From positions 285,016 through 349,015 of the forward strand of contig NZ_LMQW01000001.1 of the NCBI RefSeq assembly GCF_001425485.1: a DNA stretch of 64,000 nt, written 5' to 3'. A model generated the notes under the pieces. The model did not search any database. It saw only the letters and a program-made list of their open reading frames with translations, and was not told the origin of the DNA. Every line of letters starts with the position of its first letter. Position 1 is the stretch's first letter. The position numbers and the translations under genes are program-made. Shown here piece after piece: positions 53,593 through 56,027 of the stretch. The stretch is from Aureimonas sp. Leaf427. Its GTDB lineage: Bacteria; Pseudomonadota; Alphaproteobacteria; Rhizobiales; Rhizobiaceae.

Positions 53593-54908
53593 TGGGAACG
53601 CCCCCCTCCTCCGGCCCGGCCGGCGATCCGCCCTACCAGTCTCCGATCTCGCCCGGCCGGTCCTGGTACGAGGATTCGGTTCCCGAGCGCCCGCGCTATC
53701 CCAAACTCGAGGGCGATCTCGATACGGACGTGCTGGTCGTCGGCGGCGGGTTCACGGGCCTTTCGGCCGCGGCCCATCTGGCGAGCGCTGGCATCGACGT
53801 CGCCGTGGTGGAAGCCGCCCGCTTCGGCGACGGAGCGTCGGGCCGCAACGGCGGCCAGCTCGGCACGGGACAGCGCCTCTGGTCCTCCGAACTGGCGGAG
53901 CGCTACGGCGCCGAGCGCGCCAAGGCGCTGTTCGACCTCGCCGAGGATGCCAAGGCCCATCTTCTCGACTTCACCGCGGCCCATGGCATCGAGGTCGATT
54001 TCCGCCGGGGCCAGCTCTCGGTCGCCCACAAGCAGCGCTACGTCGCCGATTACGAGGCGCAGGCGGAAGACCTGTCCGCCAACTACGACTATCCCCATGC
54101 CCGCTTCATGGGACCGGAGGAGACCGCCGCGCGCACCGGCTCAAAGCGCTATTTCGGCGGAATGGACGACCAGGGGACGGGGCACATCCACCCGTTGAAG
54201 CTCCTCGTCGGCACGGCGAAAGTGGCCGCGGCCGCCGGGGCGAAGCTCTTCGAGGAGACGCCCATCCTGTCGCTGACGGGAACGGGAAGCGTGCTCGCGA
54301 CCACCCGGACGGGCCGCATCCGCGCAAGCCGCGCGCTCGTCGCGACCAACGCCCATGGCGGCGATCTCAGCGAGGCGGCGGCGCGCCACATCATGCCGAT
54401 CCGCTCCTTCATCGGGGCGACGGAGCCGCTGGCCGAACCAGAACGCGTCATCCCGGGCGGCGAGTCCGTCGACGATTCGCGCTTTTCCGTGCGCTACTTC
54501 CGCAAGAGCGCGGACGGGCGCCTGCTCTTCGGCGGGCGCGAGGCCTATACGTCCGAGACCGGCGACATCTCGGCGCATATCCGCCGGCAGATCGCGGAGG
54601 TCTATCCGCATCTGAAGGACGTGCCGATCAGCCATGCCTGGGGCGGCTCGGTCGGCATCACCATGGAGCGGCTTCCCTATGTGCGCCAGGTCGAGCCCGG
54701 CATCACGGCGATCGGCGGCTTTTCCGGCCATGGCGTCATGATGGCGAACTTCGCCGGCCGTCTCTTCGCCGAGCGCCTGTCGGGAAACCGCGACCGGCTG
54801 GCCCTTCTGGAAGACCTCGAAATCACGCCGTTTCCCGGCGGACGCGCCCTTCGAACACCGCTTCTGGTCCTCGCCATGACGTGGTACGCCCTCAGGGACC
54901 GCTTCTGA
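53592..54908 (+). CDS. puuB: FAD-dependent gamma-glutamylputrescine oxidase-like protein
   Basis: A 438-residue DAO-family flavoenzyme. The dinucleotide motif VLVVGGGFTGLSAAAHLASAG is near residues 48-68 and the PuuB-typical SGRNGGQLGTGQR follows near 85-97. The C-terminal GGFSGHGVMMANFAGRLFAE is the second FAD contact. Its ATG overlaps the puuA stop (TGATG). The enzyme would oxidise gamma-glutamylputrescine to the aldehyde, with H2O2 release, linking to the potFGHI importer. Confidence 0.85.
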   Translation: MGTPPSSGPAGDPPYQSPISPGRSWYEDSVPERPRYPKLEGDLDTDVLVVGGGFTGLSAAAHLASAGIDVAVVEAARFGDGASGRNGGQLGTGQRLWSSELAERYGAERAKALFDLAEDAKAHLLDFTAAHGIEVDFRRGQLSVAHKQRYVADYEAQAEDLSANYDYPHARFMGPEETAARTGSKRYFGGMDDQGTGHIHPLKLLVGTAKVAAAAGAKLFEETPILSLTGTGSVLATTRTGRIRASRALVATNAHGGDLSEAAARHIMPIRSFIGATEPLAEPERVIPGGESVDDSRFSVRYFRKSADGRLLFGGREAYTSETGDISAHIRRQIAEVYPHLKDVPISHAWGGSVGITMERLPYVRQVEPGITAIGGFSGHGVMMANFAGRLFAERLSGNRDRLALLEDLEITPFPGGRALRTPLLVLAMTWYALRDRF

Positions 54909-55011: not shown

Positions 55012-55284
55012 CATAGAGGCTGTTATGAATCTTGGACAGGTGATGTTCCGCTCGTGTTGGGTCGCGGGGTAGGAGCCCGATGCCGCCGGTAGCGGGGCTA
55101 CCGGCAAAGAGGGTGACACACATCCGCGGCCCAACACGAGCGGCCCTTCGGGTCGTGTGAGAGACGCCATCCGGGGTGTCGGTAGATCAGAGAAGACGGA
55201 TAGTCTTGCCTGATCTACCTCCTACCGGTCTGATCGTCGCTGACACGACACAACACCTGTCCAAGGTTCATAACAGCCTCTATG
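55012..55284 (+). ncRNA. Novel 273-nt structured element, probably a non-coding or 5' leader RNA
   Basis: The ends are a 31-nt inverted repeat (55012-55042 with 55254-55284) pairing at every position, 30 Watson-Crick and one U-G. Inside are a 20-nt helix (55048-55067 with 55124-55143; 19 Watson-Crick, one U-G), a perfect 9-bp hairpin with GGG loop (55085-55105), and a 10-bp stem-loop (55181-55190 with 55210-55219). GGTAGGAG (55068-55075) complements CTCCTACC (55219-55226) and would form a pseudoknot. ACACGA (55134-55139) can pair instead with TCGTGT (55153-55158), competing with the 20-nt helix. Both imperfect pairs are U-G only on the plus strand, which points to plus-strand RNA. I match it to no known RNA family. 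A MITE-like element is the alternative. Confidence 0.6.
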
Positions 55285-55292
55285 GCTCCGGG

Positions 55293-56027
55293 ATGATGGA
55301 TTCGGTACTTCCTTTGCTGACGAACGACCTGCCCGTGATGGCGCCGCCGGACCCGCAGGCGGACGCCCGATCGCTCCGCCGCCGCCTTCGCGCCGAAAGT
55401 CGCGAGAGCCATGAAGCGCTCGACGCGACGTTCGACGGGATGGCCGACGCTGCCGGACCGGACACTTACGCCCGCTTTCTCCTCGTCAACGAGGCCTGCC
55501 ACCGCGCGATCGAGCCGATCCTCGAGAGAAGCCCGCTGCCCGACGTGGCGCCGGGTTTCCGCGTGAAGAGTCGTTCGCCGTCGCTCGCCGCCGATCTCGA
55601 CGCCATGGGCCTTCGCCCGCTCGAAGCACCTGCCTTCCCGCTTTCCGCGCCGAATGCGGCCGAGACGGTCGGCATCGTCTACGTTCTCGAAGGCTCGCGG
55701 CTCGGCGCCGGCTTCATCCTGTCGCGCCTGCGCGGCCGGGATCTCGGCGAAGCCTGGTCGAAGGCCGCCTTCGCCTATCTCGAAGGCCCCGACGAGCCCC
55801 ATGCCCTGCGAGGCTTTCTGATCGAGGCAACCGCTTCGCTGGGTAGCGGGGACGAGGGCGAGCGCAACGTCGACCGTGCCGTCGCGGCCGCGGATGCGAC
55901 CTTCCGGTACTTCCTCGACGTGGAGCGCCTGTCCCGCGCAGATGCGGAGCGCCTGTCCAGCGCAGACGCGGAGCGTCTGTCCAGCGCAGACGCGGAGCGT
56001 CTGTCGCGCGCGGGAGAACGCGCTTGA
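55293..56027 (+). CDS. Biliverdin-producing heme oxygenase
   Basis: A 244-residue heme oxygenase of the HemO/BphO type, which opens heme to biliverdin, the bacteriophytochrome chromophore. The proximal heme ligand is His40 in RESHEALDATF, and the distal helix shows VYVLEGSRLGAGFILSRL. The start is uncertain: ATG 55293, 55296 and 55338 are all in frame and none has a good ribosome site. The structured element ends eight bases before 55293. The C-terminus carries a 24-bp tandem repeat encoding ERLSxADA units. Its stop overlaps the bacteriophytochrome start. Confidence 0.85.
   Translation: MMDSVLPLLTNDLPVMAPPDPQADARSLRRRLRAESRESHEALDATFDGMADAAGPDTYARFLLVNEACHRAIEPILERSPLPDVAPGFRVKSRSPSLAADLDAMGLRPLEAPAFPLSAPNAAETVGIVYVLEGSRLGAGFILSRLRGRDLGEAWSKAAFAYLEGPDEPHALRGFLIEATASLGSGDEGERNVDRAVAAADATFRYFLDVERLSRADAERLSSADAERLSSADAERLSRAGERA
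55923..56014 (+). repeat. 24-bp tandem repeat at the 3' end of the heme oxygenase gene
   Basis: Nearly four copies of a 24-bp unit begin at 55923, 55947, 55971 and 55995; the last is partial. Each encodes ERLSxADA. The unit is a multiple of three, so copy-number change keeps the frame. It ends ten bases before the bacteriophytochrome start and overlaps no known domain. Confidence 0.85.

Follow-up and report, generated by a model that had tools for sequence, protein, structure and literature searches.

A 269-bp stretch lying directly upstream of a heme oxygenase frame in Aureimonas sp. Leaf427 is very probably a non-autonomous element (MITE) that is moved by an IS5-family transposase, and whose interior fold is kept by selection and serves the element rather than the heme oxygenase. 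Among the three readings offered in a preliminary description of this DNA, that of a small mobile element with terminal repeats is the one that stands, whereas that of a riboswitch or leader controlling biliverdin supply is not borne out. In the mechanism proposed here, an element with IS5-family-like outer repeats would be moved in trans by an IS5-family (DUF4096/DDE) transposase. Its interior fold of about 200 nt is kept through compensatory changes and carried, as a core, on several different terminal repeats, and the fold would serve the element, either because insertions then do no harm or because it promotes its own mobilisation.

Locus, boundaries and fold

Within the window, i.e., the whole stretch of 64,000 nt that was analysed, the element is located 3' of a frame for a DAO-family oxidoreductase (ending at 54908) and 5' of a frame with its ATG at 55293 that matches heme oxygenase weakly, with 22.4 bits against a Pfam cut-off of 23; a bacteriophytochrome comes next. 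The heme oxygenase frame itself ends in tandem eight-residue repeats (ADAERLSS, window about 55900-56027). At Rfam gathering scores, tRNA is the sole match in the whole window. The structured 273-nt stretch reported earlier at 55012-55284 is real, with a minimum free energy of -181.8 kcal/mol compared with -99.6 +/- 5.3 in 200 shuffles (z -15.5, none of the 200 as good), and both long helices ascribed to it were found: the outer one, formed by arms of 35 nt at 55012-55046 and 55250-55284 (94% complementary), and a second one, formed by arms of 20 nt at 55048-55067 and 55124-55143 (95% complementary). Its limits were nevertheless drawn too wide, since the ends TAGAGG...CCTCTA are, with small changes, common to the full-length copies and set the family boundary at 55014-55282. 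The interior forms a cloverleaf in which a small hairpin separates two long arms. Two pairings link one arm to the other, named PKa (55068-55075 with 55219-55226) and PKb (55114-55119 with 55176-55181). The order of the parts is terminal-repeat helix, arm 2 (55048-55143), junction hairpin, arm 3 (55153-55248) and terminal repeat, as listed here:

55014-55282, plus strand: whole mobile element, TA...TA, 269 bp; boundaries common to full-length copies; the TA, target duplication or preferred target, is included
55014-55046, plus strand: left terminal inverted repeat; outer part like IS5-family IS ends, inner part closing the cloverleaf
55048-55067, plus strand: 5' strand of stem 2, the base of arm 2; 12 of 21 pairs double-changed in the 11-copy test
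55068-55075, plus strand: 5' strand of PKa, GGUAGGAG, arm-to-arm pairing
55085-55105, plus strand: arm-2 tip hairpin, GCCGGUAGCGGGGCUACCGGC, containing the motif GUAGCGGGGCUAC common to several families
55114-55119, plus strand: 5' strand of PKb, UGACAC (CGACGC in most relatives)
55124-55143, plus strand: 3' strand of stem 2
55144-55152, plus strand: junction hairpin, CCC-UUC-GGG
55153-55166, plus strand: 5' strand of stem 3, the base of arm 3
55176-55181, plus strand: 3' strand of PKb, GUGUCG (GCGUCG in most relatives)
55181-55219, plus strand: arm-3 tip hairpin; in several copies of Ensifer adhaerens SD006, a nested repeat occupies the matching loop
55219-55226, plus strand: 3' strand of PKa, CUCCUACC
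55235-55248, plus strand: 3' strand of stem 3
55250-55282, plus strand: right terminal inverted repeat

The possible pseudoknot of the preliminary description is PKa, whose strands (GGUAGGAG/CUCCUACC) pair exactly; it belongs to the best-conserved parts of the family, its six counted pairs being kept in 11 of 11 copies, with G-U in 4 of 66 cells. The helix described as competing (55134-55139 with 55153-55158) keeps 4 to 6 of its 6 pairs across the 11 copies and may or may not act as a switch. The U-G imperfection of the outer helix, which had been taken as a trace of plus-strand selection, is private to the window copy (the position is C-G in nine of the ten other copies and unpaired in one) and has no bearing on selection. 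In seven Ensifer adhaerens SD006 copies (L073, L075, L087, L088, L089, L090 and L093), the arm-3 loop contains an unrelated palindromic repeat of about 104 bp that has been copied along with the element, and a subtype with an extra hairpin of about 36 nt beside a PKb strand is present both in the own genome (L030) and in the sister species (L036, L037).

Copies, target sites and the probable mobilising transposase

The own genome contains six full-length copies with 91-100% identity, plus several fragments, and the sister species (genome G001) contains five copies with 66-78% identity; none of the other 58 relatives gave a DNA match with an E-value better than 0.002. A 25-bp end pattern, allowing up to three mismatches, matched 19 times in the own genome, and 104 repeat ends were counted in genome G587, with the reversed-pattern control giving zero in both cases. 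Many G587 contigs begin about 120 bases inside a copy; the repeats thus appear to interrupt the assembly, which makes copy number difficult to establish. An isolated terminal repeat of 25 bp, without an element (L032:1501-1525, own genome), lies near the start of an open frame that resembles a membrane protein by eye.

Two subfamilies can be told apart. In subfamily A, TA is present at both ends in 8 of 11 copies. Subfamily B comprises 28 stretches, with Ensifer, Sinorhizobium, Rhizobium and Mycoplana as named hosts plus two Rhizobiales; it has the ends TACCAACC...GGTTGGTA and 3-bp TNA duplications in 22 of 33 rows, these rows including L078, a shortened second view of the L048 copy, as well as L082, L086, L094 and L071, whose end was missed. 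An empty site was found for one insertion of subfamily B in Ensifer canadensis, which is absent from the other 14 of the best 15 of 94 plasmid records: those 14 match the two flanks as separate pieces (confirmed at base level in two of them), and the query record covers everything. Neither the window copy nor the copy L179 gave a match in plasmid records. Thirty-three-bp terminal inverted repeats, a size of 269 bp (below 500 bp), dispersed copies, target-site duplications and an empty site, the last for the one subfamily-B insertion and not for the window copy, are all features of a MITE, and together they make mobility well supported from the comparison of copies. Target duplications, which the preliminary description had proposed to look for, point to mobility and are no argument against a functional fold.

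There is no transposase inside the element, which leads to the question of what moves it. At sequence level, the ends of the element can be identified with those of IS5-family insertion sequences (IS). Three genomes were searched for DUF4096, which yielded 23 matches, and matching ends were looked for at 20 of the loci; in genome G201, this revealed an IS of about 865 bp with the ends CTAGAGGCTGTTATGGAC and a 271-residue IS5-family transposase (NF033580, 196 bits, cut-off 110, with DUF4096 and DDE_Tnp_1 also over cut-off). The element of the sister species starts with TTAGAGGCTGTTATGGAC, and the own copy L006 agrees at 17 of 18 positions. The own genome also contains a broken IS remnant with a similar end (L258), so that for the TA-type ends both an IS5-family IS and a remnant are at hand. 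It is therefore probable that a DUF4096/DDE transposase of this family moves the element in trans. An autonomous version carrying the whole repeat was not found: among the correctly oriented repeat pairs listed for G587 none exceeded 323 bp, and none was longer than 374 bp in Ensifer adhaerens SD006 or Rhizobium sp. GN54; such repeats also interrupt assemblies.

Ends and interior do not always travel together. A smaller element in the own genome (L005:1161-1378, minus strand), about 120 bp from a full-length copy, has TACCGACG ends of the TACC type and a TTA duplication and combines an A-like arm 2 with a shorter arm 3, and in genome G585 an A-like end sits on a different core (L128); these mixtures indicate that ends and core have been exchanged. 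Another IS of the own genome, L241, has CTAGGGCCTGTTGACA-type ends, like the gammaproteobacterial elements. Damaged copies exist as well. Ten of 13 correctly oriented repeat pairs in Ensifer adhaerens SD006 are full-length (at least 267 bp, with or without the nested repeat), as are six of eight in Rhizobium sp. GN54 (at least 267 bp), and the remaining ones measure 336, 177, 176, 177 and 92 bp. Four short copies were read, three lacking arm 2 and one lacking both arms, with differing junctions, and in L144 arm 2 has been inverted where it stands, an outcome that recombination across its own stem would be expected to produce. Copies with deleted or inverted arms show that an element can persist without the fold; the predominance of full-length repeat pairs would nevertheless fit a fold that aids the spread or the tolerance of the element.

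The same copies bear on the heme oxygenase. The notion that the element is a leader or riboswitch acting in cis on the heme oxygenase-bacteriophytochrome operon was attractive because of the very stable fold and of the position of the element, whose 3' end lies 10 bases before the ATG at 55293, a spacing set by the point of insertion. It is now extremely improbable, as the copies are dispersed, have no conserved position and show no orientation bias towards genes: at 70 loci, the upstream gene was on the same strand 25 times and on the opposite one 28 times, and the downstream gene 28 and 25 times, in a count made with crude gene calls, with nine loci having a frame across the junction and six lacking a call set aside, and with the orientation of distant elements being uncertain. 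Moreover, no full element was found near the heme oxygenase homologues (45-46% identical) in three other genomes of the genus: in the sister species, a copy is present on the heme oxygenase contig about 130 kb away, and in the other two genomes the DNA and covariance-model searches gave no full element. Random orientation with respect to genes also means that selection is probably for the element and not for its neighbour.

Two further candidates were rejected. Eight of 11 copies have one minus-strand frame that stays open (89-101 codons for the longest run without a stop), but lengths vary (269, 271, 307 and 308) and substitutions are spread evenly over codon positions (22/24/24), which speaks against a coding element. 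An intron was discarded too: a crude gene caller gave a frame spanning the junction at 9 of 70 empty sites, and the junction is near one end of this frame at L056, L057, L111 and L112, and well inside it at L046.

Compensatory change and the folded strand

Selection on base pairing is strongly supported by the pattern of substitutions. The preliminary description had named the lack of homologues with compensatory changes as grounds for giving up the structure; when this was examined, such changes exceeded those in shuffled alignments in both subfamilies, and the intuition that the fold is under selection proved right. RNAalifold on the 11-copy alignment gave 99 pairs, 29 of them with a kept double change. 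With the structure including PKa and PKb, 30 of 104 pairs were double-changed in these 11 copies of subfamily A (20.7 in shuffles, 0 of 500 as high), with 102 double-changed cells (37.6 +/- 4.6 in shuffles, again 0 of 500); further pair types were unexceptional (50 against 48.7, a count reached in 179 of 500 shuffles). In subfamily B, 37 of 109 pairs were double-changed against 11.8 in shuffles, and 101 cells against 27.6, neither being reached in 500 shuffles. Controls in which the partner strand was slid yielded 1-5 double-changed pairs for the 11 copies and 8-12 for subfamily B.

The arm-to-arm pairings were assessed separately on 38 of 72 rows, one per locus and with nine near-duplicate loci left out. 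For PKa, both Watson-Crick cells (227 against 206.4 +/- 4.7) and double-changed cells (26 against 13.9 +/- 2.7) exceeded every one of 2000 shuffles. The signal for PKb is modest, since 36 of 2000 shuffles reach it for Watson-Crick pairs, 208 when G-U is included and 92 for double changes; one compensated change in PKb distinguishes the window copy (GACAC/GUGUC) from most copies (GACGC/GCGUC). Extra pair types were unexceptional for both, being reached in 501 (PKa) and 759 (PKb) of 2000 shuffles. The pairing strands form the most conserved class of columns, with a mean majority of 0.947 and 0.965 in the two subfamilies. An alignment-free test of cognate pairing was dropped, because its signals were weak and one of its two controls (B5-A3) was equally significant.

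These data have to be weighed against the simplest view of such a sequence, namely that of a plain MITE whose interior is a by-product, its arms having arisen by inverted duplication and being kept complementary by hairpin-templated correction without any selection on the fold. Template-switch repair between hairpin arms could yield compensatory changes without selection, arms can be deleted and inverted, some of the covariation measures are unexceptional, and the transcripts of MITEs are generally very structured, as PMC10969869 describes. The conservation of the pairing strands argues against it, given that they are not local hairpins, as does the covariation of PKa between lineages, and so does the recurrence of the layout, often together with the tip motif and the pairings, in Alpha- and Gammaproteobacteria on different terminal repeats. 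A by-product therefore appears quite improbable.

A stronger competitor to the proposed RNA accepts selection on the fold and places it on DNA, with extruded hairpins or cruciforms steering transposition, replication or repair and RNA playing no part. Fold energy lends it support by showing no strand bias, the plus strand folding better in 22 of 52 cores with a mean difference of 0.1 kcal/mol; whole-arm deletions and the arm inversion show arms behaving as DNA hairpins, and the architecture is so nearly strand-symmetric that the covariance model matches both strands. The distinction can be sought in G-U and A-C pairs. When orientation was fixed independently, by the arm-2 tip motif only, G-U exceeded A-C by 23:7 in PKa and PKb together (binomial p 0.005 if the rows were independent, which those of related lineages are not), in 17 of 72 rows, ten loci and the rows with more than two mismatches to the motif being left out. 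In stem 2 the ratios are 41:5 and 16:1 in the two subfamilies, whereas the terminal repeats have no such excess of G-U (5:16 in A4, and 5:5). Over all helices, the ratios are 29:20 in A1 and 85:62 in A4; as in the terminal repeats of A4, A-C is the commoner one both for the arm-3 tip of A1 (0:13) and for PKa of A4 (2:22). No need for internal structure is known for IS5-family DDE transposases, which also counts against a DNA fold. On balance, a role of the fold purely as DNA seems unlikely, if worth serious consideration.

For the MITE with a selected fold, we lean towards plus-strand RNA as the selected molecule, and do not claim it. The fold would act single-stranded, most likely as plus-strand RNA derived from read-through transcription, and the long outer helix, a likely RNase III site, would allow a compact RNA to be released. 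A scan with the sigma-70 consensus found no promoter.

Distribution and relation to known systems

A covariance model of the core was run against genome samples that overlap, with filters that lose weak matches. At family level, 21 of 394 genomes gave a match (E <= 0.01); the order sample gave 16 of 397, the class sample 16 of 385 and the phylum sample 9 of 398 (E <= 1e-4), the own genome being counted each time and the phylum sample including three genomes outside Alphaproteobacteria. As the model matches both strands of these cross-shaped elements, the orientation of distant matches is unreliable (copies L148-L151 of genome G409 are listed on the wrong strand), and the score alone is no proof of homology; shared motifs do prove it. 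One match in the family sample, L059, shows no repeats, looks like a chance match and was rejected, and other weak matches may be of the same kind.

In 52 measured elements, taken from the own genome, the family, the order and two plasmids, 16-47 bases of the terminal repeats can be aligned, and the layout with two arms is seen again; the arm-2 tip GUAGCGGGGCUAC is present on the same strand, with no more than two mismatches, in 17 rows. A BLAST search with L202, which comes from outside the class, found plasmid matches in five records, from Azotobacter chroococcum (two), Pseudomonas aeruginosa PA83, Halomonas and Burkholderia stagnalis, and copies folded from one Azotobacter, one Pseudomonas and one Halomonas had the same layout. 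The architecture thus recurs in Alphaproteobacteria, Azotobacter, Pseudomonas and Halomonas, with different terminal repeats and target duplications (TA or TNA). Carriage by phages or E. coli was not detected with one gammaproteobacterial query each, plus one exact pattern in viral contigs.

Large folded non-coding RNAs such as HEARO/OMEGA RNA, GOLLD and ROOL are known, some of them associated with mobile elements. Their likeness to the element lies in the size of the fold; however, at permissive thresholds no Rfam 15 family covers an element, the sole overlap at gathering score being a Cobalamin riboswitch match (L202:1330-1492, 40.1 bits, gathering 31.5) that touches only an element end. A literature search with six literal element sequences and keywords found no description, its coverage excluding most subscription papers and preprints, so that it is no proof of novelty.

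Several repeats of known type can be compared as well. Bacterial MITEs (Correia/NEMIS, ERIC, RUP, YPAL, QMITE) are structured stem-loops with very structured transcripts, according to PMC10969869, and the element resembles them in being short, mostly intergenic and devoid of genes, in having terminal inverted repeats and short target duplications, in the putative structured transcripts and in the presumed mobilisation in trans by a related IS (PMC10969869). In contrast to the stem-loops of mostly one or few genera described there, it is a two-arm cloverleaf with two arm-to-arm pairings, spread over two proteobacterial classes and on several kinds of ends. The CIR repeats of Caulobacter and Brucella, likewise alphaproteobacterial and intergenic, have two arms, about 110 bp, no terminal repeats and a conserved GANTC in the description that PMC2229807 gives of the work of Chen and Shapiro (2003); going by that description, the element is not a CIR, as it measures about 270 bp, has long terminal repeats and contains GANTC in few copies (2 of 11 and 2 of 29). 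With IS5-family IS that have a DUF4096 transposase (IS427-like), it shares the TA target and, over the outer 17-18 bp, the terminal repeats, a TA duplication being reported for ISPsp10 of the IS427 group in PMC4133298; unlike them, it has no transposase, and no IS was seen with the arms of the element inside.

It is also conceivable, as a more tentative proposal, that the selfish unit is the RNA core, which would then represent a new class of large non-coding RNA with pseudoknots and would borrow the ends of different IS elements. In that case, the lineage persisting across Alpha- and Gammaproteobacteria would be the RNA core and not the terminal repeats, a bacterial counterpart of the eukaryotic elements that owe their success to a folded RNA. 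As regards the selected-fold MITE itself, such elements are usually viewed as IS leftovers, whereas here a knotted fold is kept across two classes while the transposon ends change. The vague idea of structured MITE transcripts thereby becomes a testable claim on one specific molecule, an attractive heme-related riboswitch reading is corrected, and a family of about 200 nt without an Rfam model, whether RNA or single-stranded DNA, is found in culturable symbionts and soil bacteria. At one locus (L110:1832-2548), three tandem matches to YrlA (Y RNA-like), one of them over the gathering score, adjoin an element.
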